Source: Arenicellales bacterium (lineage in GTDB: Bacteria > Pseudomonadota > Gammaproteobacteria > BMS3Bbin11). Taken from it: DNA of 52,273 bases. The stretch lies in NCBI GenBank assembly GCA_029287915.1, contig JARFQE010000097.1, forward strand, positions 1-52,273, in the 5' to 3' direction. A model generated the notes under the pieces. The model was not told the origin of the DNA. It did no database searches and worked only from the letters and a program-made list of their open reading frames with translations. A program made the position numbers and the translations under genes. This document shows positions 17,408-47,539 of the stretch, piece by piece; the stretch's first letter is position 1, and every line of letters starts with the position of its first letter.

Positions 17408-20400
17408 TAACCCTCCTGTAGGATCAGTACGGGTTGGCCGGCATTAATTTGACTACCTTCGTTTCGAATGATGGCGTAAACAGTTCCTGCATGTGGCGCA
17501 ACAATTTCAATTTCCATTTTCATCGACTCAAGAATGACCATCGGTTGACCCTGTTCGATGACATCACCGTGTTTAACAAGTACTTTCCAGACATTTCCTG
17601 CTACCGGGCTTTCGATAGCCACGCAGTTTTCCGGTAAATCTTCTTCTTCGCCAGTATCTGTTGTCAGATCCTGGCTAGAGTCGAAATTAAGCTGACCTGA
17701 ATCAATCCATCGCTGCAATTCATCGTCAAAAGCCTTTTTGCGTTTGTTTGTAAATAACTGAATTTCGTTTTTATTTTCATCAAGATAAACCTGATGCTCT
17801 GTTAGATTAAAATGAGTTTCTTCTATATTAATACTGTAACGACCCTTGGGAAAATCATGGCGAATTTGCATTAATTCTTCTGCGCTGACCTCAAAGAATT
17901 TGACCTGATCAAAAAAACGCAGCAGCCATGGCTGGCTAAACTCTTTTGTTTTGTGATATCGATTCCACATCTGCAATGTGCGGCCAACAAACTGATAACC
18001 ACCGGGACCTTCCATACCGTAAATACATAGATATGACCCACCTATGCCAACGGAATTCTCTGCTGTCCAGGTTCTGGCCGGATTGTACTTTGTCGTCACC
18101 AGACGGTGCCGGGGATCCATCGGCGTTGCAACTGGTGCTCCGAGGTAGACGTCTCCTAAGCCCATTACCAGGTAGCTTGCATTGAAAACAATATCTTTAA
18201 CCTGTTGAATATCATCAAGGCCATTGATTCGTCGAATAAATTCAATATTACTTGGGCACCATGGCGCGTCCTTGCGCACAGACTGCATGTATTTATCAAT
18301 TGCCAGACGACAGGCGTCGTCATCCCAGCTCAATGGCAGATGAACGACGCGTGCAGGCACCTCGAGATTTTCAATATTCTTTAGTGACGCAATTGCCTTA
18401 TCCAGAATAGCCATCAGCCGTTCCAGTGAAACCACCTGGCTATCATAATGGATTTGTAGAGAACGAATACCTGGCGTTAATTCCAGCACGCCTTGCTGAC
18501 GGTTGTCCTGTAGCCATAACATTAATGCATGCACACGAAAGCGTAATTCGATATCCAGCTTTAATTCTCCAAATTCCACCAGTAAATATTTATCACCAGC
18601 ACGACGATAGACAATTTTCGCACCATACTGCTGTTCAGCTATCGTTTTAAGTATTGGTGATGATATTGGTGCCGTTGAAATATTCTTTGTAATCTTTTTT
18701 AGTGACTTCAGTGAATCCAGTTGAGCTTTTTCTACGGCAACAGCATCATCAATAGAGACAGGTAAAAATGTGACCTTATCACCCGCTTTTAACTGACCCA
18801 GTTTCCACAAGTCAGCGGCAATCACTGTTGCTGGACAGACAAAGCCACCCAGCGAAGGACCGTCCGGTCCCAGGATAACCGGCATATCACCGGTAAAGTC
18901 TATAGCCCCAATGGCGTAGGCATTATCATGGATATTCGATGGATGCATGCCAGCTTCGCCACCATCACTTCGCGCCCATTGCGGTTTTGGCCCAACCAGC
19001 CTGACGCCGGTCCGACTGGAGTTGTAATGCACCTCCCAGTCAGCGTCGAAAAAGTCATCGATATCTCTATCGGTAAAAAAATCGGGCGCCCCGTGCGGTC
19101 CATAAATTACCCGCAGTCGCCAGCTATTGTTTATTTCCGGCAGCAGTTCAGGGGCTAACGAATGTGCTGCTGATTTAGCTTCCGCAGGATTAAAATGCAG
19201 GACATCACCAGCCCGTATTGCACGCCCGGCATGACCTCCAAACTGGCCAAGCGTAAAAGTAGACCTTGAACCCAGGTACTCAGGACATTGAATGCCGCCT
19301 TTGATACATAAATAAGCGCGCGCACCGGCAGACATAACTTTACCAATCTTTAATGTTTGACCTGCTGCGACATTGAAGACCTTCCAGAAATCTATAACTG
19401 CATCATCCAGATGAACATCCATCATCGCACCACATAATACAATCCGGGTATCGTGATTAAATCTCAGGACAGGTCCATTAAGGGTAATTTCCAGTCCTGC
19501 TGAGTCAACCGGGTTCTCCAATAGTCTGTTACCAAGCTTAAAGGAATATTGATCAAACGGACCCGAAGGCGGTACACCGATATCCCAGTAGCCTGTGCGT
19601 CCCGGATAATCCTGGATGGTGGTTAAAGTGCCGGAGCTAACTACATCAATTGTGCAGGGTTTTGTAGTAAAGCTATTCAGATATCGGGTGAATATTTCAC
19701 CTTTACTAAAAACGTCGGTGTTTAATATTTCACGTACATACCCTATATTGGTTTCAATGCCATACAATTTAGTTTCTGCAAGCGCATTATCGAGTTTCTC
19801 GATTGCACTTTTTCTACTGTCAGATATCACAATAATTTTTGCCAGCATTGGATCAAATAGCGGTGAAACCTCTATACCCGTTTCCAGCCAGTGATCTATC
19901 CGAAGATAATCATTAGCTGGAAAACTGACTTCACTCAACAAGCCGGCGCTGGGCTGAAAGTCTTTATTTGGATCCTCGGCATACACGCGTGCTTCGATTG
20001 CATGACCGCTAGACTGTAATGTCATAGACAGCGCGTCGAGATCATCCAGCTCATTCGCAGCAAGCCTTATCATCCATTCTACGAGATCGATGTTGAATAA
20101 CTGTTCAGTAACACCGTGTTCGACCTGTAGCCTTGTATTAACTTCAAGAAAATAAAATTGATCAGTATCCCTGTCATAGACGAACTCTACTGTACCAGCA
20201 TTACGATAGTTAACAGCCTTCACCAGTGTTTTGGCTGTTTGATGCAGATCTTTTCGAACTTCCTCGGGAATATTAGGCGCTGGAGTTTCTTCCAGTACTT
20301 TCTGGTTGCGCCGCTGGGTTGAGCAATCACGCTCACCAATCGCTATCGCCTTACCATGACCGTCACCAAATACCTGTACCTCGATATGCCTTGCATACTC

Positions 20401-21006
20401 GATAAATTTTTCGATCAATACACCACTATTCGAAAAATTGCTTTCGCTTAACCGACGCACCGAATCAAAGGCCTTCTCAAGTTCCTGCTGGTCCCAGCAA
20501 AGCTGCATACCAATGCCTCCTCCGCCAGCGGTACTTTTCAGCATAATGGGGTAGCCAATGGTTCGTGCCTGTTCAACTGCATCATCTACACTATCCAGTA
20601 ATCCAGTGCCTGGCAGCAATGGAATGCCGTTTTCTTCGGCCAGCTGGCGTGCTGTATGCTTTAATCCAAAAGATTGCATCTGCGCCATGGTCGGTCCAAT
20701 GAATGCAATATTGTTATCTTCACAGCGCTTAACGAAGTCAGGATTCTCACTTAAAAAACCATAACCGGGATGCACCGCCTGGGCACCACTCCTTTTTATG
20801 ATGTCAAAGAGTTTTTCCTGGTTTAGGTAAGTCTCTGCGGCGCGCCCCTCACCAAGCGAATAACTTTCATCGGCATAGCGGACATGCAGGGAATCGACGT
20901 CGGCATCGTTGTAAACGCTGACAGACGTACAACCGATCGTTTTTAAAGTGCGGATTATGCGGGTTGCAATGGCGCCTCGATTGGCAACAAGAACTTTAGT
21001 AAACAT
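17407..21006 (-). CDS. Urea/guanidine carboxylase, biotin-dependent
   Basis: 1199 residues. Domains in order: biotin carboxylase (1-450; VLVANRGAIATRI, KSTAGGGGIGM, FLEVNTRLQVEHGVTE), then the AHS2/KipA-like and AHS1/KipI-like carboxyltransferase halves (about 470-770 and 800-1050; SSGTLTTIQDYPGRTGYWDIGVPPSG, GGFVCPATVIAADLWKLGQL), then a biotinyl domain with K1163 in ESMKMEIE. The family carboxylates urea to allophanate or guanidine to carboxyguanidine. Two DUF1989 genes directly upstream are the carboxyguanidine deiminase pair in characterised guanidine-degrading bacteria, and a full urease lies elsewhere in this window, so guanidine is the more likely substrate (inference). The known urea/guanidine specificity residue needs an alignment. 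Confidence 0.93.
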   Translation of the reverse strand: MFTKVLVANRGAIATRIIRTLKTIGCTSVSVYNDADVDSLHVRYADESYSLGEGRAAETYLNQEKLFDIIKRSGAQAVHPGYGFLSENPDFVKRCEDNNIAFIGPTMAQMQSFGLKHTARQLAEENGIPLLPGTGLLDSVDDAVEQARTIGYPIMLKSTAGGGGIGMQLCWDQQELEKAFDSVRRLSESNFSNSGVLIEKFIEYARHIEVQVFGDGHGKAIAIGERDCSTQRRNQKVLEETPAPNIPEEVRKDLHQTAKTLVKAVNYRNAGTVEFVYDRDTDQFYFLEVNTRLQVEHGVTEQLFNIDLVEWMIRLAANELDDLDALSMTLQSSGHAIEARVYAEDPNKDFQPSAGLLSEVSFPANDYLRIDHWLETGIEVSPLFDPMLAKIIVISDSRKSAIEKLDNALAETKLYGIETNIGYVREILNTDVFSKGEIFTRYLNSFTTKPCTIDVVSSGTLTTIQDYPGRTGYWDIGVPPSGPFDQYSFKLGNRLLENPVDSAGLEITLNGPVLRFNHDTRIVLCGAMMDVHLDDAVIDFWKVFNVAAGQTLKIGKVMSAGARAYLCIKGGIQCPEYLGSRSTFTLGQFGGHAGRAIRAGDVLHFNPAEAKSAAHSLAPELLPEINNSWRLRVIYGPHGAPDFFTDRDIDDFFDADWEVHYNSSRTGVRLVGPKPQWARSDGGEAGMHPSNIHDNAYAIGAIDFTGDMPVILGPDGPSLGGFVCPATVIAADLWKLGQLKAGDKVTFLPVSIDDAVAVEKAQLDSLKSLKKITKNISTAPISSPILKTIAEQQYGAKIVYRRAGDKYLLVEFGELKLDIELRFRVHALMLWLQDNRQQGVLELTPGIRSLQIHYDSQVVSLERLMAILDKAIASLKNIENLEVPARVVHLPLSWDDDACRLAIDKYMQSVRKDAPWCPSNIEFIRRINGLDDIQQVKDIVFNASYLVMGLGDVYLGAPVATPMDPRHRLVTTKYNPARTWTAENSVGIGGSYLCIYGMEGPGGYQFVGRTLQMWNRYHKTKEFSQPWLLRFFDQVKFFEVSAEELMQIRHDFPKGRYSINIEETHFNLTEHQVYLDENKNEIQLFTNKRKKAFDDELQRWIDSGQLNFDSSQDLTTDTGEEEDLPENCVAIESPVAGNVWKVLVKHGDVIEQGQPMVILESMKMEIEIVAPHAGTVYAIIRNEGSQINAGQPVLILQEG

Positions 21007-21085
21007 AAGCGCTTCATTGTTCGGTGGCAGGCCGTCCTGCTGTTATACAATGATCGACCGGGCCGTCCCGGCGACTGTTTATAAA

Positions 21086-21724
21086 TTAGTCCCAGACCAG
21101 TACTTCAATCGGTGTCGGGTTATAGGCATTGCATGGATTATTCAGCTGCGGACAGTTTGATATCAGCACAATAACATCCATGATGGCCTTCATTTCAACA
21201 TACTTTCCAGCATCAGAAATGCCATCCTCGAAGGTCAGCTGGCCGTCAGCTGTTACGGGCACATTCATGAAGAAGTTAATATTATGCGTTATATCGCGTT
21301 TGCCTATTCCAAACTCTTCGTGTTCTGCTACGGCAAGCATCCAGCTGTCCCTGCAGGCATGCATGCACTTTTTATCAAGGGCATAGCGAACCGTGTTACT
21401 TTCTGTCGCGCAGGCACCCCCCAATGTGTCATGTCGACCACAGGTGTCGGCAACAATTTCCAGCATCTCATTACATTGCGAGGACAACAGTTTTGTTCCT
21501 GTCGTTAAATAAATATTACCCTGTTCCCGAATAGTGTCTATCGCACTATAACGTTCGCTGGGGTCACTGGCGTTATAAAACAGGGTATCTGCTGCCTGGT
21601 TGCCCTCCAGGTCAAGAATGCGAAAAGTCTGTCCACTTTTTACTATATGAATAAAGTAATCACCGGCCAGCACTGTTTGTCTAAAACTAGCCAGTGATGG
21701 TTCAAGTTTGCTCTCTACAATCAT
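21086..21724 (-). CDS. DUF1989 protein UAAP2, probable carboxyguanidine deiminase subunit
   Basis: 212 residues from ATG at 21724, which overlaps the upstream stop as ATGA; a frame four codons longer is less likely. Signature segments: [52 protein letters not shown] and the tail [20 protein letters not shown], all typical of urea-carboxylase-associated protein 2. In published work the UAAP1/UAAP2 heterodimer (CgdA/CgdB) deiminates carboxyguanidine to allophanate and ammonia. It is followed 79 bases later by the carboxylase. Conserved Cys and His residues are probably metal or catalytic ligands. Confidence 0.9.
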
Positions 21725-22548
21725 CGACAGTGGCACCCCAGGTTGTACAGCTCCGTATTTTTAAAACCGCGCTGATTTTCCTCTGAAGAATTTTTGCAGA
21801 GGTCGTCATCCGTTACCTGATCGGCCTCGGAGATCTGGTAGATCACTGGTTTTTTTGGGTATTCAATAGCCGGGTTCATCGGGTGAGGACAGGTATGAAA
21901 GATTACCAGTGTGTCCATTTCGAAGCGTAAATCAATGAAATCATCAGGCTGGGAATTATTCTCCACGAAGTGCATGTCACCGGCATCGTCGACTTCCACT
22001 TTACTGAATATATTCAGGTTGGCAGACATATCGCGTTGATTCATACCATACTTCGACATTTCAATCAGGAAACTGTCATGTCCGTTTAAATACCAGTCAT
22101 TCCGATAATCCTGATAATTATGGTCACCCCATTTGTCTTTCACGCTTTTCTTATTTGTGTTGCCGCCCACCGTATCATGCCAGCCGACACTATCATCTAT
22201 AATGGAACAGAAAATTCGGCCCATGTCAGAATATATACAATGGCCTTTTGTCAATTTAAAGGTATGCTGACACTTCAGTGTATCAGGGGCGTTATATCGT
22301 TCCAGGTAATTAGACGGGTTATAAAACAGCATCCCGACATTGGCACCACCTGTTTTGTCAATCAGGCGTAAAACTGTGCCCTGCCGCATCTGCATCGACC
22401 AGTGTGCACCACCGGGAATGGTGTCTTCATATAACACTTCTCTGGGGATTTTTGTTCTTCGGCTCATCGCTAGTTGATTACCTGGTAATACTTTCTCATC
22501 ATAGTCCTTCAAATCAAAACGATTAGGATTTCCCTGTATAAAGGGCAC
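21721..22548 (-). CDS. DUF1989 protein UAAP1, probable carboxyguanidine deiminase subunit
   Basis: 275 residues. Family segments: [66 protein letters not shown], and [18 protein letters not shown]. It is the longer partner of the UAAP pair. It is paralogous to the next gene (both have W/RHDT-x-GG and N-x-N-x-F). Translationally coupled to UAAP2 by ATGA. Its role is inferred from the characterised carboxyguanidine deiminase. The C-terminal tail of about 45 residues rich in Asp, Ser and Asn has no clear match. Confidence 0.9.
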
Positions 22549-22587
22549 CAGATGCCCTTACTACAACCCGTATTACTTTAACTCCAA

Positions 22588-23961
22588 TTAGAATAGATGG
22601 CTATAGCGCTCGATTTCCCATGCAGAGATCGTCTGGTGATAGGCATTCCATTCTTCGCTTTTGTACCTGACAAATTCATCTCTGAGTTCCTGTCCCAGCG
22701 CTTCGACAACAAAAGGATCGGCGGCAAAGGCATCAATCGCTTCAAGCAGGTTCTTCGGTAAAAATTCGATCCCGCGGCTGGCCCGATCCTGCTCACTGAG
22801 TTCATACAGGTTATCCTCCTGCGGATGCCCTGGATCAATACCTTCGCGAACACCTTCAAGACCGGCTGCAAGCGCAAGTGTAGCAGCGAGATACGGATTT
22901 ACAGAACCATCAGCATTGCGTGATTCGAAGCGTCCGCCACCCATCGGCACACGGATAGAATTTGTACGGTTGTTGGAGCCAAATGAGTTGAATACCGGCG
23001 CCCAGGTAAAATAGGGCATGTCACCCTGCCTGACCAGCCGCTTGTAGCTGTTGACTGTCGGTGCAAAAGCGGCACAAAGTGCCTTGCCATGTTTAAGTAC
23101 ACCACCAATAAACTGGTAGCCGAGTTCAGTCAATCCAAGACCTTTTGGATCTTCCTCTGGATCACAGGAGAACAGATTTTCACCGCTTTCAAGGTCGTAC
23201 AATGACATATTAAAATGCGCACCGTTGCCGGTTTTATCGGCAAATGGCTTGGGCATAAAGGTTGCAACCAGCCCTTCCTGCTTTGCATATTCCTTGGCCA
23301 TCAGCCTGAGGAAGGTAAAACGATCACAGGTGGTCAGGGCATCGGCATACATAAAATCAAATTCATACTGACCATTGGCATCCTCATGATCGAAGGAATA
23401 CAGATCCCAGCCGAGATCATTGATGGATGTCGCCATCTTGTCGAGCCAGTCAAACTGGTCAAGAAAACAGCGCGCGTCATAACAGGGCTTTGTCAATCTG
23501 TCATCCGCATTGGGTACCGATAACGACCCATCTTCATTCTGTTTCAATACAAACAGCTCCGCCTCGATGCCAAGATTGAAACCAAACCCCATTTTCGCAG
23601 CCTTCTTCTGCATGTTCTTCAATGAAGCCCTGGTGTTCAGCAGGTATGGCTTGCCATGGAACGTATTGTCCGCAGGCATCCAGGCCACCTCGGGCTGCCA
23701 GGGCAGCTGAATGATGTGGTCAAGGTCCGGCACCGATGCAATTTCATCGTCATTCGGCTGCTGACCAAGGCCATCGAGGGCATAGCCGGTATAGAGTTCT
23801 GAACCATGGGCCATGTGTTCCAGGTGTTTGATGGGGACGACCTTGCCCTTGGGTACACCATGGATATCGACGTAGGCACCGAGACAATACTTGACGCCTT
23901 TTTGTACAAGCTCAGACTGGATTTTCCTGATTTCTTCTTTACTCTTCACTTTCGACCTCAT
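22588..23961 (-). CDS. Type III glutamine synthetase (GlnT-like) or gamma-glutamylamide ligase
   Basis: 457 residues with the glutamine synthetase fold: N-terminal beta-grasp ([18 protein letters not shown], 25-42), ATP/metal motifs [49 protein letters not shown]. It resembles the Rhizobium GlnT group rather than GlnA, lacking the adenylylation region I would expect in GlnA. Members ligate ammonia or small amines to glutamate. In this operon it could trap released ammonia, or gamma-glutamylate an amine freed from a substituted guanidine (inference). Its ATG shares one base with the preceding creatininase-family stop. Confidence 0.8.
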
Positions 23962-24731
23962 TAAGTGATAGTGATTTTTTCGTGATACGAATGAGGCAGG
24001 GGTGATTCTTCCTGCATACCTTTGCGCACCATGGCGCTGAGATCATCCACCATCCAGGAAAATAATTGTTTGCCTTTTTCACTGCTGGCAAGACTTGGCC
24101 TGCCTGTCACACCATTGCTACTGGTTCGATTGACCGGGTGTGAAAATACGCAATCCGTCGTCCGATCAGGATCATCACAATCAGCAATGCGTTCTTCGCG
24201 CACCATCTCGGCATTCAGCGCCATCATCAGCGACGTTTCGGCATCATTCGCATGCCAGTCATCAGCATCGTGATAGTGCTGCTGTTTCACTCGCTCACTG
24301 ATCGAACCTGAATTTATCAGGGCCACCATGAAGCCATCATGTTCAGCACGCAACATTTCCAGCGCACACCTGAGCGGGGCATGATTGGTAACATGGGTGT
24401 TGATGATAAAAAGACGCCTGAAGTCCGACGCAAATACCCAGTCGCCAATTTGTTTGACGACATCAATCATTGTCTTTGGCTGCAGGGCAAGTGTTCCCGG
24501 CCAGCGTTGCGAATGGCCGATGGAACATCCATAAGGCAGCGTCGGCAATAATGCGACGCCTGTCTGCTGAGCAACTTCACGACACAGATGCAATGCAATT
24601 TCTGCATCCATGCCGCAGCCCATGTGCGGGCCGTGCTGTTCTGTCGCACCCACCGGCAACATCGCCGTATCGATACCTTGCGCTGTCAACTGGCCGATCT
24701 CTTCCCAGGTCATCCGGTACCAGTCATGCAT
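23961..24731 (-). CDS. Creatininase-family amidohydrolase, atypical motifs
   Basis: 256 residues. Family motifs are E31-Q-H33-G, D42, [16 protein letters not shown] and a C-terminal HANDAETS at 160-167. Two usual signatures are altered: NGHGGN or NGHYEN is NTHVTN here (H113 kept), and HAGExETS is HANDAETS. The family includes creatinine amidohydrolase and several cyclic-amide or formamide hydrolases with two metal ions. It is inside the guanidine operon, 2 bases after the ABC ATPase, so a cyclic guanidino compound is a plausible substrate, but this is inference. Calling it creatininase itself would be overreach. Confidence 0.78.
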
Positions 24732-24733
24732 GG

Positions 24734-25654
24734 TCAGAAGACACTCTCGACTTCATGGTTAACCGGCACCATGCGCACCATGTTCATCTTATCGCTATCG
24801 ATCACATCACCTTCCTCAGGTGGGTGAATAAGATCTTCCAGACGCTTCTTGGTCGCCAGGAACTCCGGTGACAACAACTGCTCGGGGGAACGTGGCTGCG
24901 GCACAGGCACTTCAATTAGCTCCTGTACCTCACCGGGATGTGCTTTCAGGACCAGGATGCGGTCCGCCAGGTAGATGGCCTCATCAAGATCATGCGTTAT
25001 AAACAGGATGGTGATATCGATGTTCTGCCAGATCTCCATAAGATATGACTGCATCTTGCTGCGCGTCTGCGCATCCAGCGCACCGAAAGGCTCATCCATC
25101 AATAGCACTCGTGGCTGATTGGCCAGAGCACGAGCAATTGCTACGCGCTGCTTCATACCTCCTGATAACTGGTGCGGATAACTATCAACAAACTGGGTCA
25201 GGCCGACGAGATCGATCCACTGGCGGGCATCTTCTTCAGCAACTTCATTGCTATGACCCGCCTGTTGCAGACCAAACATGACATTTCTCTTAACAGTCAG
25301 CCAGGGAAACAGGGTATAGCCCTGGAACACCATGCCACGATCCTGGCCGGGCCCCTTGACCTCTTTGCCATCAAGCAGTACCTGCCCGGAAGTAGGTATC
25401 TCCAGACCGGCAAGTATTCGTATCAGTGTTGACTTGCCGCAGCCGGATGGTCCAATCACGCAGACAAATTCCCGCTTATGTGTTTTAAAGTTAATATCCT
25501 TCAGCGCGGTGACCGTTTCAGACGCCGGTGTTTCAAAGTCCTTGCACAGACCTTTCACCTCCAGGGTAACTGGTCGCTGCTTGAGACGTGTAAAACGATC
25601 CCTGACGGCATCATCCTGTTCAAGGTAGCTTGGTAATTCCAGCAGCTGTGTCAT
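24734..25654 (-). CDS. NitT/TauT-type ABC transporter ATPase
   Basis: 306 residues. Walker [16 protein letters not shown]-loop region [17 protein letters not shown], signature [16 protein letters not shown], Walker [13 protein letters not shown], switch His in FITHDLDEA. The sequence resembles NrtC/SsuB/TauB ATPases. The tail after residue 240 is longer than usual. Forms the importer with the next two upstream genes. Such transporters are recurrent partners of urea/guanidine carboxylase operons. Confidence 0.9.
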
Positions 25655-25685
25655 AAGTTTCTCTTTAACTCTGCGTTGTATTCAA

Positions 25686-26660
25686 TCAGGCTCGTGCAGA
25701 CTGTTGTTGCCATGGGAAGAAGCGGCGGCCTAGCCAGGCCAGGATCAGATCGGTGGTAATACCGATGATGCCAATCATCATGATGGCTGCGAAGACGTTA
25801 TCAAAATTCTTGTAGCGGGCCTGCTGGGTAATAAACCAGGTAATGCCAGAACTGGTACCGATCAGTTCAGCTACGATCAGATACGTCCAGGCCCAGCCCA
25901 ACAGTATCCGCATATCGCGATACAGATCAGGCAGGATTCCCGGGACGACGACCTTGAATAACAATGACTTGTTTTTTGCACCCAGTGTCTGGGCTGCTTC
26001 GAGCAACGAGGGATCCAGTTTGCGCGCGGTATTGGACACTACCAGCACCTGCTGAAAGAATGTTCCGATAAAAATTATGGCAATCTTGGGGGCATGGTGT
26101 ATGCCGAGAATAGCAACAGCAAGAGCGCCAAAGGCCGGTGCCGGCAGGTAACGAAAAAACTCAATAAACGGCTCGAACAGACGTGAGAAAAAATCATAGG
26201 TGCCCGCCATGATGCCAAGCGGAACACCGATTAATGAAGAAAGAAAAAACCCCCAGAAAATAACCTGGATGCTGTCCCACAGACTTTCATGCAGCCATTT
26301 CTCCGAGCGACGCTTCGGCTCAGTGGTGAAGGCGGTGTAGAACGCGACGGCGACTTCATGCGGTGCCGGCAGATAAATCGGGTTGGCGGGCTTTCCCTGC
26401 GGCAACGCCATAGCTGAATCTTCAAGCTTTGTTAGTTCCTGATAAAATAAATCCTTATCGACAAGCATGCCCTGCTTGAAGTAGGAAACAGCACCCGGGT
26501 CGCTAATCTCGACCTTGGGGTGCCATAACCAGGGGACGTAACTAAACAGGCTCCAGAGCAGGATGGGCAGAACAAAACTCATCACTGAAATAATGAAGCG
26601 CGGTCTGGGTCTAAGGTCCTTGCGAACAGCAAACCATTGCATCGTTGATGTTGTGCTCAT
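25686..26660 (-). CDS. NitT/TauT-type ABC transporter permease
   Basis: 324 residues with an N-terminal helix (FIISVMSFVLPILLWSLFSYV), a periplasmic insert of about 80 residues, and five further helices. The EAA loop reads DPSLLEAAQTLGAKNKSLLFKVVVPGILPDLYRDMRI. This is the BPD_transp_1 family near SsuC/TauC. The insert between the first helix and the core is a feature of the nitrate/bicarbonate-type branch. Encoded between binding protein and ATPase genes. Confidence 0.88.
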   Translation of the reverse strand: MSTTSTMQWFAVRKDLRPRPRFIISVMSFVLPILLWSLFSYVPWLWHPKVEISDPGAVSYFKQGMLVDKDLFYQELTKLEDSAMALPQGKPANPIYLPAPHEVAVAFYTAFTTEPKRRSEKWLHESLWDSIQVIFWGFFLSSLIGVPLGIMAGTYDFFSRLFEPFIEFFRYLPAPAFGALAVAILGIHHAPKIAIIFIGTFFQQVLVVSNTARKLDPSLLEAAQTLGAKNKSLLFKVVVPGILPDLYRDMRILLGWAWTYLIVAELIGTSSGITWFITQQARYKNFDNVFAAIMMIGIIGITTDLILAWLGRRFFPWQQQSARA

Positions 26661-26687
26661 AACCCTCGACTCCGCTGCCTGTTTAAG

Positions 26688-27668
26688 TCACATTCCCATC
26701 ATCAGGGAAGGATCGATGTAGGCATCAACATCCTCGGGTTTTTCATAGACCTTATTGGCAACATTAAAGTCATCAGCAATCTTGCTAGAACCATAGATAG
26801 AAGTGAAGCCTTCACCCTTGACCATGAACTTTTTAGCCTCTTCCAGAGTGAGGATATTGGTGCCATCGATGAAAGATTTATACTCAGCCGGCTCGAGACC
26901 CACGCGTGAAGCCATAATCTTCACCGCATCTTCTCGCGTTGCAGGATCCTTCAGATAGGCAACAGCGCGATACCAGACCTTGATCACCTTCTTCCAGTCA
27001 TCAGCACGTGCTGCGAAGCTTTCAGGACTGACACAAAGCATGTCGTAGATCAGGCCGGGTTCATCAGCACTGGTGTAGATCGGCTTTGAGCCTGGAACCA
27101 GCTGCAATGCCTGTCCGGAACTCGGCTGCCACGCAACGATGGCATCAACTTCACCGGAAGCCAGTACCTGGGGTGTCTCGTTGGTCGGGGCATTCACCAG
27201 CTCAACATCTGTCTCGGTCATGCCATTCTTTTCCAGTGCGTTCAACAACAGCAGGTGACTGACAAAACCGACCTCGACACCCACTTTCTTACCCTTGAGA
27301 TCCTTTATTGAGTTGATACCGGGCTTGCCGATCACCATGTCATTGCCGTTGCTGTAATCATTCATCAGGATCATGACACTCTTGGCGCCCGTTGATCCGG
27401 TAACCAGTGCATCACCGTTGGTCATACCAACGCCATCGAGTTTACCGGCTGCAAAAGCATCCATTGAAGCGACGTAATCAAACCATTCGAATATAACGTC
27501 AACGCCCTCTTCCTTGAACCAGCCTTTTTCGATAGCGATTTCATAGGCTACCCACCCCGGCCAGTCGCTATACCCGATCTTCAGTGGTTCAGCTGCAGAG
27601 GCTAATGAACTAAACAACATTCCGCCAGCTAACAATGTAGCAAGAAGTTTTCGATAAAATGATCTCAT
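26688..27668 (-). CDS. ABC transporter substrate-binding protein (NMT1/SsuA-like)
   Basis: 326 residues. Signal peptide ([19 protein letters not shown]), then [34 protein letters not shown], typical of periplasmic binding proteins in the nitrate/sulfonate/taurine/guanidine group. First gene of the operon; good ribosome site GGGAGA. The predicted transcription start from the sigma-54 promoter leaves a leader of only about 44 bases, too short for a guanidine-I riboswitch. Ligand is probably guanidine or a guanidino compound, from context only. Confidence 0.88.
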
Positions 27669-27722
27669 TGTGTATCTCCCAGATATTGATATTAAAAATT
27701 ATTCAAACACTAAAACTGTTCA

Positions 27723-27738
27723 AGCAAGTTACATGCCA
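27723..27738 (-). promoter_or_regulatory. Sigma-54 promoter for the guanidine operon
   Basis: The minus strand reads TGGCATGTAACTTGCT, against the consensus TGGCAC-G-N4-TTGC-W; only the C at position 6 differs. GG and GC are spaced 10 bp. The ATG of the binding-protein gene is 55 bp downstream. Confidence 0.82.
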
Positions 27739-27823
27739 ACCAGAAATAATTCAGTTCCAGACAATGATATAGACGTCCTGTAATGGACTTTACGTGTGCT
27801 GATCGTGCGGAAATGGGCACCAC

Positions 27824-27839
27824 GCACCCGTATGGTGCA
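27824..27839. promoter_or_regulatory. NtrC-type dyad between two divergent sigma-54 promoters
   Basis: GCACCCGTATGGTGCA matches the NtrC core GCAC-N5-TGGTGC exactly. It lies about 85 bp upstream of the minus-strand -24 element and about 53 bp upstream of the plus-strand -24 element, so it can serve both. A further GCACCA half site overlaps at 27817. Confidence 0.75.
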
Positions 27840-27871
27840 AAAAAAGTTATTGGCTACTTCCATTCGCCTTC

Positions 27872-27890
27872 GTTATGCCGTTTGCATAAC
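27872..27890. promoter_or_regulatory. Perfect inverted repeat GTTATGC-N5-GCATAAC
   Basis: Seven-base arms with a 5-base spacer, ending one base before the plus-strand -24 element. It has the shape of a dimeric regulator's operator. No regulator gene is adjacent. Confidence 0.6.
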
Positions 27891-27891
27891 A

Positions 27892-27907
27892 TGGCATCTT
27901 GATTGCA
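27892..27907 (+). promoter_or_regulatory. Sigma-54 promoter for the TIM-barrel gene
   Basis: TGGCATCTTGATTGCA fits the -24/-12 consensus with correct GG/GC spacing. The expected transcription start is near 27917, followed by AAGGTGG and the start codon region at 27936-27945. Confidence 0.75.
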
Positions 27908-27944
27908 TCATTTACTGTGAAGGTGGCAAATCTGTTTGGTAAAG

Positions 27945-31602: not shown

Positions 31603-31618
31603 AGCAATTTGTATGCCA
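31603..31618 (-). promoter_or_regulatory. Sigma-54 promoter for the desaturase-like unit
   Basis: The minus strand reads TGGCATACAAATTGCT, matching the -24 TGGC and -12 TTGC elements with correct spacing. It is 88-103 bp before the ATG. Confidence 0.78.
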
Positions 31619-31762: not shown

Positions 31763-31779
31763 TGCACCATGGATGTGCA
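31763..31779. promoter_or_regulatory. NtrC-type dyad
   Basis: TGCACCATGGATGTGCA is a TGCAC-N7-GTGCA palindrome with the left half TGCACCA exact. It is about 145 bp upstream of the -24 element, a normal enhancer distance. Confidence 0.68.
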
Positions 31780-39780: not shown

Positions 39781-40476
39781 CTAAACGGTTAGATATTTAC
39801 GAATAAGTTCATCGTTTAGGTCATCAATTTTTGCGGCCGCCATCATCCGGCCACGATCAAGGATAATAAATGAATCTGCCACTCGGCGCACAAAAGGAAG
39901 TTTCTGCTCTACCAGTAATACCGTGAGACCAATCTCACGATTGAGTTTACCAATGACATCACCAATTTCATGCACGATATTTGGCTGTATCCCTTCCGTC
40001 GGTTCATCGAGTATCAGTAGTTTGGGATCGGTCACCAACGCTCTGCCTATAGCGAGCTGCTGCTGCTGTCCACCGGATAAATCACCACCACGACGGCCGA
40101 GCATCTCTTTTAGCACCGGGAACATTTCGTAAATAAAGTCAGGTATAGTTTTCAAACCATCCCTCCTTGCCTGCAAGCCGATTCGCATATTTTCCTCGAC
40201 AGTCAGCAATGGAAAGATCTGTCTACCCTGTGGTACATAACCGATACCCATATGGGCACGATGCTCAGCGGTTAATTTTGTCAGGTCATTATCAAGGTAG
40301 TGGATAACACCGTCGCGCACCGGCAACAATCCCATGATGCACTTTAATAATGTGGTCTTGCCGACCCCATTGCGTCCCATCAGACAGGTGCACTCACCTT
40401 CTTGTACGTTCATCTCAATGTCCCAGAGGGTATGGCTTTCACCATAGTATTGATTGATGCTGTCGAGTTTCAGCAT
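39781..40476 (-). CDS. urtE: UrtE, urea ABC transporter ATPase
   Basis: 231 residues. Walker A GRNGVGKTT, Q-loop YVPQGRQIFPLLTV, signature LSGGQQQQLAIGRAL, Walker B LLILDEPTEGIQP. LivF-type ATPase. Start shares one base with the urtD stop. Only a short gap with the HPGHEH gene separates it from the ure genes. Confidence 0.93.
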   Translation of the reverse strand: MLKLDSINQYYGESHTLWDIEMNVQEGECTCLMGRNGVGKTTLLKCIMGLLPVRDGVIHYLDNDLTKLTAEHRAHMGIGYVPQGRQIFPLLTVEENMRIGLQARRDGLKTIPDFIYEMFPVLKEMLGRRGGDLSGGQQQQLAIGRALVTDPKLLILDEPTEGIQPNIVHEIGDVIGKLNREIGLTVLLVEQKLPFVRRVADSFIILDRGRMMAAAKIDDLNDELIRKYLTV

Positions 40477-41306
40477 TAATCACCCCCCAGGTAAACGTCG
40501 ATCACACGCTGGTCATTCTGGACAACTTCCATCGATCCTTCTGCCAGTACACTGCCCTGGTGTAGCACGGTAACCGGGCTGTCCAGCGAGCGGACAAAGT
40601 CCATGTCATGCTCAACAACAATAACAGATTGATTACCAGCCAGTGTTTTCAATAGCTCTGCAGTTTTGTCCATCTCCTGATGGGTCATACCGGCAACGGG
40701 TTCATCGACCAGCAATAGTTTTGGCCTCTGCATCAGCAGCATACCAATCTCCAGCCATTGTTTCTGCCCATGCGATAAGTAACCTGCTTCAGTATACAAC
40801 TGCTGCTCGAGACCAATAGTTTCAACAACTTCATTGATATGGTCCCGCTGCTCGCCGCTTAGTTTTGCTACCAGGGTCGGGAAAACCTTTTTATTACTGG
40901 CCATTGCCAGTTCCAGGTTTTCGAATACGCTATGCTTCTCAAATACCGTGGGTTTCTGAAACTTTCGTCCGATACCCGCTTCTGCAATTTCTGCCTCACT
41001 CATACGCAACAGGTTCATGCGCTGACCAAACCAGCAGGATCCTTCATCAGGGCGAGTTTTGCCGGTAATCACATCCATCATGGTAGTCTTTCCGGCACCA
41101 TTGGGGCCGATGATGCAGCGTAATTCTCCTGTATCGATGTACAGGTTCAGATCATTGATTGCCTTGAAGCCGTCAAAACTGACGGTAATACCCTCAAGGT
41201 AAAGAATTGTCCCGTGCCTGAGGTCCAGCTCGTCGGTGACTTTTGGGATCATGAAATTATAGACATGTGTGCGATCCGCCATCGAATGTAAGGTCGTGCC
41301 CATCAT
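40476..41306 (-). CDS. urtD: UrtD, urea ABC transporter ATPase
   Basis: 276 residues. Walker A GPNGAGKTT, LSHGQKQWLEIGMLL in the signature position (a UrtD-type SHGQ rather than SGGQ), Walker B LLLVDEPVAGM. LivG-type ATPase with an N-terminal extension of about 30 residues. Four-base overlap with urtC. Confidence 0.93.
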   Translation of the reverse strand: MMGTTLHSMADRTHVYNFMIPKVTDELDLRHGTILYLEGITVSFDGFKAINDLNLYIDTGELRCIIGPNGAGKTTMMDVITGKTRPDEGSCWFGQRMNLLRMSEAEIAEAGIGRKFQKPTVFEKHSVFENLELAMASNKKVFPTLVAKLSGEQRDHINEVVETIGLEQQLYTEAGYLSHGQKQWLEIGMLLMQRPKLLLVDEPVAGMTHQEMDKTAELLKTLAGNQSVIVVEHDMDFVRSLDSPVTVLHQGSVLAEGSMEVVQNDQRVIDVYLGGD

Positions 41307-42391
41307 GATGTCACACTCCGACGCTTAAGCATGCCAACAAAGCCTTTCGGCAGGTAAAGAGTAGTCAGAACAAATAACGCACCCAGTGCAAATAACCAGA
41401 TTTCCGGGAACGCCCCGGTGAAATAGGTCTTTGCATAATTGACCAGTATAGCGCCAACAACGGCACCATAAAGTGTCCCCCTGCCGCCGACAGCCACCCA
41501 GATGACCACCTCAATCGAATTCAATGGTGAGAACTCTCCGGGATTGATGATGCCCACCTGTGGCACATAGAGCGCGCCGGCCACACCCGCGAGTGCCGCT
41601 GAAAAGGTAAATATTGCCAGCTTTACATATTCAACCCGATAACCAATAAAGCGGGTACGATCTTCCGCATCCCGAATCGCAACGGCGACCCGACCAAGCT
41701 TGGACTTGACGATTGCCCGGCAGGCCAGGTAACCCATAGCTAATGCCAGAGCCGAAATCATGAACAACGCGATTCGTGTAGCATCTGCCTGTAGATCAAA
41801 ACCCAGCAGGTCTTTAAAATCCGTCAGGCCGTTATTACCGCCAAAACCCATTTCATTGCGGAAAAAAGCAAGCATCAGTGCATAGGTCATTGCCTGCGTG
41901 ATTATGGACAGGTAGACACCGGTCACGCGGGAACGAAAGGCAAACCATCCAAACACAAACGCCAGCAAACCCGGCACTAGCAATATCATAATGGCAGCAA
42001 ACCAGAACATATCAAAGCCCTGCCAAAACCAGGGCAGTTCTGAGTAGTTCAGGAACACCATGAAGTCGGGAAGCTCAGGATTACCGTAGACACCCCTGTC
42101 TCCTATCTGGCGCATCAGATACATCCCCATGGCATAACCGCCGAGCGCAAAAAATGCGCCGTGCCCAAGACTGAGAATACCGAGGTAACCCCAGACAAGA
42201 TCAACGGCAACAGCAAGCAAGGCATAGGTCAGATACTTGCCGAGCAAGGTAACACTATATGTCGACAGATGCAGCGCACTGGACTCCGGTACCAGCAGAT
42301 TCAATACTGGCACGACAATCATCGCAGCCAGCAATAATGCCATCAGCACCTGTCCGCCACGATCACCTTTTAGTATTCGCATCAAAAACAT
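41303..42391 (-). CDS. urtC: UrtC, urea ABC transporter permease
   Basis: 362 residues from ATG 42391, four bases after the urtB stop and preceded by GGAGGG; an upstream in-frame ATG (42436) lies inside urtB and is less likely. LivM-type permease with about ten helices; GYLGILSLGHGAFFALGGYAMGMYLM is the family signature. Works with UrtB. Confidence 0.93.
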   Translation of the reverse strand: MFLMRILKGDRGGQVLMALLLAAMIVVPVLNLLVPESSALHLSTYSVTLLGKYLTYALLAVAVDLVWGYLGILSLGHGAFFALGGYAMGMYLMRQIGDRGVYGNPELPDFMVFLNYSELPWFWQGFDMFWFAAIMILLVPGLLAFVFGWFAFRSRVTGVYLSIITQAMTYALMLAFFRNEMGFGGNNGLTDFKDLLGFDLQADATRIALFMISALALAMGYLACRAIVKSKLGRVAVAIRDAEDRTRFIGYRVEYVKLAIFTFSAALAGVAGALYVPQVGIINPGEFSPLNSIEVVIWVAVGGRGTLYGAVVGAILVNYAKTYFTGAFPEIWLFALGALFVLTTLYLPKGFVGMLKRRSVTS

Positions 42392-42395
42392 TCTG

Positions 42396-44003
42396 TTAGC
42401 CCTCCGCTGAACGTCCTTTCTGCGGGAACAGACCACGAGGGCGTTTCTGTATAAACAGAATGATAAATATAAGTATCAGTATCTTCGCCAGCACGGCACC
42501 TGCCCAGGGTTCAAGGAATTGATTTACCACACCGAGACTGAGACCGCTTACCAGGGTACCGGCCAAGTTGCCAACACCACCGAAGACAACAACCATAAAT
42601 GAGTCAACAATATATGACTGGCCGAGGTTGGGACCGACATTCGTCAATTGTGACAATGCGACGCCGGCAACTCCGGCAATACCTGAACCTAGCCCAAAGG
42701 TTAATGCATCTACCCTGGCAGAGCGAACGCCCATAGCGCGTGCCATCGACCGGTTTTGCGTCACCGCACGCACCTGCAGACCAAGTGATGTTTTCTTCAG
42801 AATTATATTCAGTACAACAAATACCAGCAGGCAGAATATAATGATATACAGGCGGTTATAGGTAAGGGACAGCACACTATTGATTTCCAGCGAGCCGGAC
42901 ATCCACTCCGGGGTCACAACAGAGCGATTAAGTGGTGAGAATATACTTCGCACCGTCTGTTGCAGAATGAGACTGATACCAAAGGTAGCAAGTAATGTTT
43001 CTAATGGCCGCCCGTATAAATGTCGAATCACGGTTTTTTCAATCAGTATACCCACCAGACCAGAAACAATAAAAGCAGCAGGAATTGCCAGCAGGACTGA
43101 GAGTCCTATCAACTCGGGCAGCGCCTGCTGTATCACATAGGTGGTATAAGCACCGAGCATAATCAATTCACCATGCGCCATATTGATCACGCCCATCACA
43201 CCGAATGTTATCGCAAGCCCAATTGCAGCGAGCACCAGTACAGAGCCGAGACTTAATCCAAAAAATAATGTTTCCAGGAATGAATAGAGTTGTATCTGTA
43301 CGCTGATATTATTCAACGCCTTTTTTGCTGCTTTGCGAACTGCTTCATCAGGATCATCGGCGACAATCGTTGCGAGCTTACCGCGCACGGCGGGTTCTAT
43401 ACTGCCTGACACCCCCGCGATGGCTGCAAGTCGATCTTTTTTGTCAGCGCTCTCAAGCTCGGTGATTGCCAGTGCCAGTTCAATCGCCTGCCTGACTTTC
43501 TTATCGTTTTCAATCTCAAGTCGCTGCTGCAAGTGGGTAACCATCTCAGCATCGGGGTCGCCGAGGATTTGATTGACTGCCTGGTAACGTGTCACGGCAT
43601 CTTCACTGTCCAATTGTTTAACAGCCAGAGCCGCTCTGATCTTCTTGCGAATCGAATTATTGGTAGTGATTTTTTTTATTTCACGTTTCTTCACCACGCC
43701 CAGGTCCTGCCCTGTGATGGCATCAGAAACAATATATTCTCTGTTCTGCTTTTTTGTAATCAGCAGCAGCTTATCTGTTTTACGATAGTATAGTTCTCCT
43801 TCCAGCAGCGCATTGAGTATCTCAGTGGTACGTCGCTCAGGATGAGCAGCAAGTAAGCTAACGGCCTGCGTTTTTTCAGCGAAACTTTTACTTGTTATCA
43901 GGTTCTTTATCTGCTCAAAAGACTTACTCTCTGCCTCGGCGACAGCACCATGTGTGACAAGCATGGAAAAGAGAAAGATCAGTATCTTGAGCTGAAAGTG
44001 CAT
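42396..44003 (-). CDS. urtB: UrtB, urea ABC transporter permease with periplasmic HEAT-like domain
   Basis: 535 residues. Signal segment, then a helical N-terminal domain (about 25-235) rich in Ala/Lys with repeats such as EDAVTRYQAVNQILGDPDAEM, the UrtB-specific extension; then LivH-type permease helices (GLSLGSVLVLAAIGLAITFGVMGVINMAHGELIMLGAY). Standard length for UrtB. Confidence 0.93.
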   Translation of the reverse strand: MHFQLKILIFLFSMLVTHGAVAEAESKSFEQIKNLITSKSFAEKTQAVSLLAAHPERRTTEILNALLEGELYYRKTDKLLLITKKQNREYIVSDAITGQDLGVVKKREIKKITTNNSIRKKIRAALAVKQLDSEDAVTRYQAVNQILGDPDAEMVTHLQQRLEIENDKKVRQAIELALAITELESADKKDRLAAIAGVSGSIEPAVRGKLATIVADDPDEAVRKAAKKALNNISVQIQLYSFLETLFFGLSLGSVLVLAAIGLAITFGVMGVINMAHGELIMLGAYTTYVIQQALPELIGLSVLLAIPAAFIVSGLVGILIEKTVIRHLYGRPLETLLATFGISLILQQTVRSIFSPLNRSVVTPEWMSGSLEINSVLSLTYNRLYIIIFCLLVFVVLNIILKKTSLGLQVRAVTQNRSMARAMGVRSARVDALTFGLGSGIAGVAGVALSQLTNVGPNLGQSYIVDSFMVVVFGGVGNLAGTLVSGLSLGVVNQFLEPWAGAVLAKILILIFIILFIQKRPRGLFPQKGRSAEG

Positions 44004-44130: not shown

Positions 44131-45423
44131 CTAGAAGTTCTGACCTGAGCACTTGCCTGTTTTGACGTTGTAGTTACCGCAGGAAAGTGGCACCCGCCAG
44201 TCAGAGATAAGGTCCTTCGAGCCAGGTAGATAATCTGACCATGCATCGCCGACTACCAGGCCCGAGGTTTCCCAGACGACTTCAAACTGGCCGTCTTTCT
44301 GAATTTCACCGATCAGAACAGGCTTGGTGATATGATGATTAGGCATCATTGCTGACAGTCCGCCTGTCAGGTTCGGCACCGCAACACCGATAATCGCATC
44401 CTGAACTGCTGCCGGATCAGTAGTGCCCGCTTTCTTGACGGCTTCTACCCACATATTGAAGCCAATATAGTGTGCTTCCATCGGATCATTGGTAACACGC
44501 TTTTTATCCTTGATATAAGCATGCCATGCTTCTATGAATGAGTCGTTAGTTTCAGAGTCAACACTCATGAAGTAATTCCATGCCGCCAGATGACCGACCA
44601 GTGGTTTGGTATCAATACCAGACAACTCTTCTTCACCGACAGAGAAAGCCACCACCGGAATATCTTCAGCAGAAATACCCTGGTTGCCCAGTTCTTTATA
44701 GAAAGGAACGTTGGCATCACCATTTACCGTCGAGACAACGGCGGTTTTCTTACCGGCAGAACCAAATTTCTTAATTTTTGCTACTTCAGACTGCCAGTCT
44801 GCAAAGCCGAAGGGTGTGTAGTTGATAAGAATATCTTTTTCGTCCACTCCTTTAGCCTTCAAATAGGCTTCCAGAATTTTATTGGTCGTACGTGGATAAA
44901 CGTAGTCGGTGCCTTCAAGCACCCAGCGTTCTACACCAATCTCGTTCATCAGGTAGTCAACTGCCGGGATAGCCTGCTGGTTAGGTGCTGCACCAGTATA
45001 GAAAACATTTTTGGATGATTCTTCGCCTTCGTACTGAACCGGGTAAAACAATAAACTGTTCAGCTCTTCAAAAACAGGCAACACAGATTTACGTGATACA
45101 GAGGTCCAGCAGCCAAATACTGCGGAGACTTTTTTCTTTTCAATCAGTTCACGGGCTTTCTCAGCAAACAGTGGCCAGTTTGAAGCCGGATCAACAACTA
45201 CCGCTTCAAGCTTTTTGCCAAGTAGTCCACCTTTTTTATTCTGCTCTTCAATCAGCATCAGCATTGTATCTTTTAGTGTTGTTTCACTGATTGCCATGGT
45301 TCCTGACAATGAGTGCAGTATGCCCACCTTGATTGTATCTTCTGCAGCAAGGGCTGATCCTGAAAACATAGCCGTGGCCGCCAGTCCCACCGCTGTTTTT
45401 TTCAGTGATTTCATCGATAGCAT
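44131..45423 (-). CDS. urtA: UrtA, urea-binding protein
   Basis: 430 residues. Signal peptide (KTAVGLAATAMFSGSALAA), then DTIKVGILHSLSGTMAISE, GCWTSVSRKSVLPVFEELNSLLFYPVQYEGEE and the C-terminal VWETSGLVVGDAWSDYLPGSKDLISDW, all typical of UrtA/FmdD. Tight homologue of characterised urea-binding proteins. Ribosome site AGGAGA supports the ATG at 45423. Promoter: sigma-54 site at 45482-45497. Confidence 0.94.
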   Translation of the reverse strand: MLSMKSLKKTAVGLAATAMFSGSALAAEDTIKVGILHSLSGTMAISETTLKDTMLMLIEEQNKKGGLLGKKLEAVVVDPASNWPLFAEKARELIEKKKVSAVFGCWTSVSRKSVLPVFEELNSLLFYPVQYEGEESSKNVFYTGAAPNQQAIPAVDYLMNEIGVERWVLEGTDYVYPRTTNKILEAYLKAKGVDEKDILINYTPFGFADWQSEVAKIKKFGSAGKKTAVVSTVNGDANVPFYKELGNQGISAEDIPVVAFSVGEEELSGIDTKPLVGHLAAWNYFMSVDSETNDSFIEAWHAYIKDKKRVTNDPMEAHYIGFNMWVEAVKKAGTTDPAAVQDAIIGVAVPNLTGGLSAMMPNHHITKPVLIGEIQKDGQFEVVWETSGLVVGDAWSDYLPGSKDLISDWRVPLSCGNYNVKTGKCSGQNF

Positions 45424-45481
45424 GTGAATCTCCTAATAATTGATGTGTAGTTTAGACATGAGTTACGTCAATCAACACTAA

Positions 45482-45497
45482 AGCAATTAGCATGCCA
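45482..45497 (-). promoter_or_regulatory. Sigma-54 promoter for urtA
   Basis: The minus strand reads TGGCATGCTAATTGCT: TGGCA and TTGC elements with correct spacing, 59-74 bp before the urtA ATG. Confidence 0.82.
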
Positions 45498-45561
45498 CTA
45501 TCATATTCGATGAATTCTAAAAGGATACAGGCGCCCTAAAGCCTGCTCTGCTTTGTTCCAG

Positions 45562-45577
45562 GCACAGCACTGGTGCA
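45562..45577. promoter_or_regulatory. NtrC-type dyad upstream of urtA
   Basis: GCACAGCACTGGTGCA contains GCAC-N5-TGGTGC exactly. About 65-80 bp upstream of the -24 element of the urtA promoter. Confidence 0.75.
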
Positions 45578-45803
45578 GTTTTTATTCAACGGCAATATTT
45601 ATGCACCAGATCTGTACGTTCCTGTAATCCCGTTTCCTTGCAGGAGATCTGGATCGCAATATCGAACGTTTTCAATAATTGTATGCGGGCATCAGGTGTT
45701 TAAAAAATTAGATATTCATACCGCTCTGCATATTTATATACGCAATGAATAATGAATATTGTACGAAAACGAGTAGCAGCTGTTCTTCCCGTGCGCAGAT
45801 TTA

Positions 45804-45820
45804 TGCACCAATATAGTGCT
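45804..45820. promoter_or_regulatory. NtrC-type dyad upstream of the TorF porin
   Basis: TGCACCAATATAGTGCT matches TGCACCA-N3-TGGTGCA closely (left half exact). About 97 bp upstream of the plus-strand -24 element at 45917. Confidence 0.7.
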
Positions 45821-45916
45821 AAAACGCAGATACACGACACATTATAAAGCTTATTTAATGAATCATTCAACGTCGGAATAATTCTATCTTATTGTTTATT
45901 AAAAATATTTTAATTA

Positions 45917-45932
45917 TGGCACAGAAAATGCT
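45917..45932 (+). promoter_or_regulatory. Sigma-54 promoter for the TorF-family gene
   Basis: TGGCACAGAAAATGCT has TGGCAC and TGC with correct spacing. Leader of about 88 bases to the ATG at 46031. Confidence 0.75.
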
Positions 45933-46030
45933 TATGTTGTGCAGTGTGACTTTGATGCAACGTTATATGTCTTTTTTACAACATTCATCAAATAAACATT
46001 AATTTATTAATCTAGTTAGGAGCTTTAAAT

Positions 46031-46780
46031 ATGAAAACTTCAATCCGTCCTTTAGCACTTGCTACTGCTTTATCAATTGGCAGCCTGGCAGCAGTGATCA
46101 CACCGGCCCAGGCTGAAGTGACAGGAAACATTGGTCTCTTTTCACAGTATGTTCTGCGTGGTATCACAAACGCGCCTGAAAATGACAATGTTGCCATCCA
46201 GGGTGGTGTGGACTGGGCTGCCCCGATGGGTTTCTACCTTGGTTACTGGGGCTCTAACCTGGGCTATGGCAATCCAGACAGCGACGTCAAGGGTTTTGAA
46301 AATGACTTCTACGGCGGCTGGGGCGGATCTACAGATCTGTTGAGCTGGGATATTGGTGCTACCTATTACTACTATCTGAATATAAGTGATTTCAATGCCT
46401 TCGAACCTTATGGTTATATCGGCGTGGGCCCAGCTACTTTTGGCTTTAAATACCTGGCGGAAGACGTCGCCTGGGGTAACAGCGGTGATACCTACTGGAC
46501 ACTGGATGCATCTGGAGATATTGGCGCTGGTTTCACCCTCAGTGGCCTGATTGGTTACTACTCGTATGACAAGAATGGTGAATTCATTCCTGAAGTGCCA
46601 GAAGCGAAAGGCAGCGCATTTCGTCACTTTGACCTGACCCTGTCTCATCCAATTGGCAACACCGGTGCTGATGCCAACTTTACCTATATCTTTGGCGGTG
46701 AAGACCGCTTCGGTGTTGATCAGAAAAATCAGATTGTGTTCTCTGTGACCTACGGTTTTGATATCTATAATCCGAAGTAA
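46031..46780 (+). CDS. TorF-family putative porin
   Basis: 249 residues. Signal peptide (ALATALSIGSLAAVITPAQA), then VTGNIGLFSQYVLRGITNAPEN at the start of the barrel, alternating beta strands throughout, and a final aromatic strand (IVFSVTYGFDIYNPK). Matches the conserved CHP02001 (Gcw_chp) barrel family. Outer membrane location. Ligand unknown; nitrogen-regulated control region shared with urtA suggests it lets urea or other small nitrogen compounds through the outer membrane (inference). Ribosome site AGGAG. Confidence 0.87.
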   Translation: MKTSIRPLALATALSIGSLAAVITPAQAEVTGNIGLFSQYVLRGITNAPENDNVAIQGGVDWAAPMGFYLGYWGSNLGYGNPDSDVKGFENDFYGGWGGSTDLLSWDIGATYYYYLNISDFNAFEPYGYIGVGPATFGFKYLAEDVAWGNSGDTYWTLDASGDIGAGFTLSGLIGYYSYDKNGEFIPEVPEAKGSAFRHFDLTLSHPIGNTGADANFTYIFGGEDRFGVDQKNQIVFSVTYGFDIYNPK

Positions 46781-46817: not shown

Positions 46818-46843
46818 AAAAGGCACCTTCGGGTGCCTTTTTT
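46818..46843 (+). terminator. Rho-independent terminator after the TorF gene
   Basis: AAAAGGCACC-TTCG-GGTGCCTTTTTT: a 6-8-bp GC stem with UUCG tetraloop and a T-run, 38 bases after the stop codon. Confidence 0.93.
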
Positions 46844-47104: not shown

Positions 47105-47539
47105 ATGATCAGCAGAACTGTACTAAAATCTGCCTTTGCAGCGACATTGACAGCAAGCCTGATGTCTGTCCTCAGCGCTAGTGCAGATGACAATGAAATT
47201 CTTGAACGAGTTAAACCCACTGGCCAGCTGGTTGTTCTGGAAGACAATGCCACAACTGTGCCTGCTGCAGCAGCAGCTGAAGCTGCACCCGCAACAGCAG
47301 ATGTGGGCAAATCCACCTACGATACTGCCTGTTTTGCCTGTCATGGCACGGGCGCCGCTGGCGCACCCATTACTGGCAACAAGGATGCATGGGCTAGTCG
47401 TGTTGGCCAGGGTTTAGATACTCTTTACTCTCATGCAATCAATGGCTTCAATGCAATGCCTCCAAAAGGTGGTGCGATGAATCTGACCGATGATCAGATT
47501 AAAGTAGTCGTTGACTATATGATAGGGCAGTCAAGCTAA
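47105..47539 (+). CDS. Cytochrome c5-like periplasmic cytochrome
   Basis: 144 residues. Signal peptide (VLKSAFAATLTASLMSVLSASA), an Ala-rich linker (52-64), and a cytochrome c5 domain with C76-F-A-C-H80, GTGAAGAP and the Met ligand in FNAMPPKGGAM. Carries electrons in the periplasm. A candidate donor for NirS/NorC, but not in the operon. Single gene with its own terminator. Confidence 0.9.
   Translation: MISRTVLKSAFAATLTASLMSVLSASADDNEILERVKPTGQLVVLEDNATTVPAAAAAEAAPATADVGKSTYDTACFACHGTGAAGAPITGNKDAWASRVGQGLDTLYSHAINGFNAMPPKGGAMNLTDDQIKVVVDYMIGQSS

Follow-up and report, generated by a model that had tools for sequence, protein, structure and literature searches.

In a 52,273-bp stretch of DNA from an Arenicellales bacterium (contig JARFQE010000097.1; this whole stretch is called the window below), a gene of the TorF family, torF, stands divergent from urtA, which encodes the binding protein of a urea importer. 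Our analysis indicates, with a probability of roughly two in three, that the torF product acts as a diffusion channel of the outer membrane, a monomer of 12 strands, and makes that membrane more permeable to urea, and plausibly to guanidine, under nitrogen shortage. That the protein may let urea or guanidine through the outer membrane had been put forward in an earlier note on this DNA, and this proposal gained support from the genomic linkage of its family, from the subfamily tree and from relatives associated with guanidine riboswitches. The features of the torF locus on which the argument draws are as follows.

46031..46780 (+), torF, TorF-family putative 12-strand outer-membrane channel, 249 aa (family profiles, predicted fold)
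46472..46498 (+), WGNSGDTYW in codons 148-156, the loop motif that marks the urea/guanidine subfamily
46818..46841 (+), terminator-like hairpin 3' of torF (sequence)
45917..45932 (+), sigma-54 (-24/-12) site of torF, TGGCACAGAAAATGCT (motif scan; core invariant in congeners)
45805..45819 (+), NtrC-like dyad GCACCAATATAGTGC, about 130 bp 5' of the inferred torF transcription start
45603..45617 (no strand assigned), possible NtrC half-site or dyad GCACCAGATCTGTAC (weak by itself, with 3 mismatches; congeners keep the TGCACCA half)
45562..45576 (no strand assigned), NtrC-like dyad GCACAGCACTGGTGC towards urtA (weak by itself, with 2 mismatches)
45482..45497 (-), sigma-54 site of urtA, TGGCATGCTAATTGCT (motif scan; conserved in congeners)
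44131..45423 (-), urtA, urea ATP-binding cassette (ABC) transporter binding protein (UrtA TIGR03407, 569 bits)
39781..44003 (-), urtBCDE, remainder of the urea importer (profile matches)

The torF gene is an intact open reading frame (ORF) of 249 codons and the sole TorF-family member found in the genome, a 95.7%-complete assembly of 139 contigs. Its product lies above the curated cut-offs of TIGR02001, the 'TorF family putative porin' (110 bits, cut-off 47), and PF09694, Gcw_chp (73 bits, cut-off 24), over most of the profile, with positions 9-244 of 244 covered in TIGR02001. A Pfam scan (E<=0.001) of the product returned PF09694 only, with no sequence match to the KdgM/NanC family. Inspected for an export signal, the N-terminus proved basic at first and then hydrophobic, and AQA|E stands at residue 28, immediately ahead of strand 1. 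Because a terminator-like hairpin follows the gene, torF is probably a single-gene unit. torF is followed by a small c-type cytochrome here (47105-47539, +) as well as in two congeners, and in a fourth congeneric genome a cytochrome c gene lies 5' of torF.

The genes urtABCDE and the urease genes run opposite to torF from 45423, and the gap between urtA and torF (45424-46030) is exactly 607 bp. This confirmed the earlier claim of a control region common to torF and the urea importer. The claim that torF has a sigma-54 promoter of its own also held: the -12 GC of its site sits 100 bp ahead of the torF ATG, and the strict form TGGCAYRNNNNWTGCT occurs 4 times in the 52 kb, 2 of these inside the gap. 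Both sigma-54 sites are unchanged in two congeners, where a dyad is also present 5' of the torF site (TGCACCAGCAGGGTGCA in one of them). In addition, the genome encodes NtrC (707 bits) and RpoN (470 bits). The NtrC dyad of the earlier note was likewise recovered: the predicted dyad 5' of torF, with 1 mismatch against GCACCAWWWTGGTGC, is the best of the gap and has counterparts in the congeners, and it is weak by itself. NtrC-like sites with <=2 mismatches number 2 in the window versus 0.58 expected, and the dyad at 45805-45819 is not significant alone. torF has a sigma-54 site and an upstream NtrC-like dyad, both kept in relatives; the case for its regulation is built on the two sigma-54 sites, on how they are conserved and on the comparison across genomes. 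In one congener (G004; L151/L053, 1867-5422), urtA and torF are separated by genes for a histidine kinase, an OmpR-type response regulator and a cytochrome c, together with two small genes; torF retains its own sigma-54 site there.

The earlier note had asked whether TorF-family genes co-occur with urt genes, and they do. Among 370 gammaproteobacterial genomes, TIGR02001 was detected in 196, UrtA (E<=1e-60) in 91 and both in 47. The two genes lie within 3.5 kb of each other in 18 of these 47 genomes, against an expectation of 0.215 based on genome sizes (Poisson p ~1e-28, relatedness ignored), and the 18 genomes cover 12 family labels. Usually the urease genes with ureG come first, followed by torF and then urtABCDE, all on one strand (UreG was confirmed in one locus), and the divergent arrangement is that of the window genus. 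A survey of neighbours covered 103 TorF genes in 100 loci, with hidden Markov model hits given priority over antisense ORFs in ORF calling. It assigned 15 genes to urtA, 3 to a Urt-like importer, 22 to other neighbours and 63 to glnK/amtB, mostly with torF directly upstream of glnK; this last share was drawn from best-scoring hits and may be inflated.

In other genomes, sigma-54 sites (score >=14) were found 5' of torF in 12 of 15 urt-linked, 3 of 3 fmd-type and 41 of 62 amt-linked loci, while the same threshold was reached by 1.1% of 440 other genes and shuffled sequences gave expectations of 0.1, 0.05 and 0.45 for the three groups, respectively. The weight matrix approximates the published consensus, and it is the contrast with the controls, not the score, that carries the argument. 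Predicted sigma-54 control is therefore common to the whole TorF family, and the amt-linked sites led us to discard the idea that only urt-linked torF genes have it. Since this control is family-wide and most sampled members stand beside glnK-amtB, a sigma-54 promoter alone does not point to urea.

In the phylogenetic tree, urt-linked TorFs formed one clade of 16 rows with full support (100/100), with the window torF inside it, and a second clade of 5 rows (100/99) represents a separate recruitment to urt and fmd-type loci. When 80 loci from public genomes (L151-L230), collected with the pattern WGNxGD[IT]YW, were added, the window clade grew to 82 rows (support 100 in the Shimodaira-Hasegawa-like approximate likelihood ratio test, SH-aLRT). 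It held a 38-row clade (SH-aLRT 100) nearly all of whose members come from guanidine-carboxylase/allophanate-hydrolase loci of Betaproteobacteria. The motif WGNxGDxY was present in all 14 urt-clade census members, the window included, versus none of 63 amt-linked ones; these counts refer to census loci only, L151-L230 being left out as circular because they had been found by the motif pattern. In the predicted fold the motif falls in the loop between strands 7 and 8, which would be extracellular if both termini are periplasmic. Because the second urt-linked clade is without it, the motif is a mark of the subfamily and not of urea linkage as such. The window torF, with its clade position, its WGNSGDTY and its divergence from urtA, belongs to the urt-linked subfamily as defined here. 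Two Thiomargarita metagenome-assembled genomes (L175, L180) carry urea/guanidine-subfamily TorFs with the WGNxGD loop beside glnK-amtB, not urt. The torF of L183, labelled Notoacmeibacter, is nearly identical to a gammaproteobacterial one, and this locus is probably a binning error.

Rfam searches connected the subfamily with guanidine. Guanidine-I riboswitches lie 16-112 bp 5' of the torF ORF, in its 5' leader, in L202, L209, L215 and L216 (the last three from Cupriavidus). They also precede SsuA-torF in five Herbaspirillum loci, head ten SsuABC-carboxylase-torF operons and, in a further five loci, occur in units that diverge from torF. In the gammaproteobacterial locus L161, a guanidine-I riboswitch is followed by SsuABC, a guanidinase-like gene and torF, the last gene of the operon. 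The guanidinase-like protein matches the solved chains 7esr/7oi1 ('Probable agmatinase 2') with 571 bits, of which we take 7oi1 to be the guanidine hydrolase of Synechocystis. The operon of that hydrolase is described in a review of guanidine (PMC12186494). As a candidate substrate, guanidine is thus supported independently, through relatives in riboswitch-controlled guanidine operons.

Several points weigh against a urea and guanidine channel. Both solutes (~60 Da) should pass general porins, and a dedicated channel would be useful only at low concentration. In 29 of the 47 genomes with both genes, torF and urtA are not adjacent, and most sampled TorF members adjoin glnK-amtB, so the linkage could follow the nitrogen regulon and not the solute. 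For the window protein, guanidine rests on relatives that are 31-38% identical, and the Rfam search found no guanidine riboswitch before torF in the window. The family-wide sigma-54 sites and the predominance of glnK-amtB among the neighbours would fit a general nitrogen-starvation porin for any small polar solute, whose neighbourhoods reflect a shared regulon. We consider this explanation unlikely, since the division of TorF into subfamilies on the tree follows the partner importer, the loop signature splits the subfamilies, and the riboswitches that directly precede torF in four loci respond to guanidine, not to nitrogen status.

The AlphaFold2 model of the torF product has 12 strands (mean predicted local distance difference test score, pLDDT, 73; predicted template modelling score, pTM, 0.73), and by this prediction the protein is a porin-type transmembrane beta-barrel. 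The closest solved folds include the porins KdgM, VhGalP and NanC (Z 15-17, 2.4-2.9 A over 164-186 residues, ~10% identity). It is very improbable that the barrel is closed or structural and that its link to nitrogen genes has another cause. Such a reading could appeal to the moderate model confidence, to barrels of different function that match the model at Z 13-16, and to a profile search of solved structures that returned no sequence relative; against it, the top solved folds are uptake porins and the association with importers is repeated. That the channel is an exit route through which expelled guanidine leaves the periplasm, and not an entry route for a nitrogen source, is hardly credible: many guanidine-riboswitch genes are exporters (PMC12186494), but the operon partners of torF are ABC importers and degrading enzymes, and its neighbour in the window is a urea importer.

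A second nitrogen-type locus of the window may take part in the proposed pathway.

15605..27668 (-), guanidine/urea carboxylase-type cluster (profile matches)
21027..21074 (-), guanidine-II riboswitch 5' of the carboxylase gene (Rfam, 35.8 bits, gathering 32)
27723..27738 (-), sigma-54 site 5' of the guanidine-type cluster, TGGCATGTAACTTGCT (motif scan)
27824-27838, NtrC-like dyad GCACCCGTATGGTGC between two sigma-54-type sites, in a second divergent nitrogen-type control region (27660-27960)

The cluster contains an SsuABC-like importer, a creatininase-like protein, a type III glutamine synthetase, two carboxylase-associated proteins, urea/guanidine carboxylase and allophanate hydrolase. Because a sigma-54 site and an NtrC-like dyad also stand before its SsuABC genes, this genome seems to place the guanidine-type cluster under common control with torF and urea uptake. 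If torF encodes a urea and guanidine channel, phosphorylated NtrC bound near 45812 would activate sigma-54 polymerase at 45917-45932 and switch torF on, and the urtA operon would be transcribed from a sigma-54 promoter of its own within these 607 bp. Under nitrogen limitation, the TorF barrel would admit urea, perhaps guanidine, into the periplasm and feed the binding protein UrtA, perhaps also the SsuA-like protein of the guanidine-type cluster; ammonia would be released by urease, or by the carboxylase and allophanate hydrolase.

For urea and guanidine, enzymes and importers of the inner membrane are already known. Nor is a urea porin in the outer membrane a new idea, because FmdC, which belongs to Methylophilus methylotrophus and is named in comammox Nitrospira as well, is an amide/urea porin encoded with an amide/urea importer (PMC11064514). 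TorF genes hold a matching place before a Urt-like importer in L058, L067 and L068, a comparison by gene position, and in L058 and L067 torF also lies before the gene of FmdA formamidase (773-777 bits). Since TorF there holds the place of FmdC in the known fmd cluster, these loci suggest short amides as a third solute class. In Shewanella oneidensis, TorF, the namesake of the family, is controlled by TorR. This protein (SO4694) is annotated as a trimethylamine N-oxide (TMAO) reductase system outer membrane porin (PMC5955497). By annotation, it resembles the window protein as a named family member for a small nitrogen-containing solute, but it is tied to TMAO respiration and the window torF to urea. 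KdgM, NanC and VhGalP are monomeric 12-strand porins with a fold similar to the model, whereas their known ligands are acidic sugars and they share ~10% identity and no Pfam family with the torF product. The TorFs of torF-glnK-amtB clusters belong to the same family and frequently have sigma-54 sites, but mostly fall in other clades and are without WGNxGDxY.

In the open-licence literature, no paper describing a link of TorF to urea or guanidine use was found, and the word porin is absent from the guanidine review (PMC12186494) and from a comammox-guanidine paper. Descriptions of the TorF urea/guanidine subfamily, of its riboswitch-linked members and of the loop signature appear to be missing from the searchable open literature. 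The linkage gives a family labelled 'unknown function' by Pfam a concrete candidate substrate class and a loop motif, and it raises the question of the solute of glnK-amtB-linked TorFs. It is possible, if somewhat short of probable, that the TorF family as a whole consists of outer-membrane channels for small nitrogen compounds, with subfamilies matched to Amt, Urt, Fmd-type amide and guanidine importers, with the WGNxGD loop as the urea/guanidine selectivity element and with some members switched by guanidine through riboswitches. Culturable relatives in Cupriavidus, Herbaspirillum and Massilia carry riboswitch-linked torF.

Other observations were made in the window. UrtB (42396-44003, -) has ~240 additional N-terminal residues before the permease domain, the match covering 244-531 of 535 aa. 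Opposite the sigma-54 site of the guanidine-type cluster, a sigma-54-like site at 27892-27907 (+) precedes an ORF at 27936-28790. At 31603-31618 (-) stands a perfect sigma-54 form, TGGCATACAAATTGCT, accompanied by a dyad, GCACCATGGATGTGC, at 31764-31778; it precedes a gene (30508-31515) distantly like desaturases/hydroxylases, which is followed by an AiiA-like lactonase gene. Finally, Rfam 5_ureB_sRNA matches of 77-99 bits were found antisense to ureC in the window (37543-37829, +), in L153 (2962-3241) and in L192 (10865-11146); these may be conserved ureC coding sequence instead of a genuine RNA.
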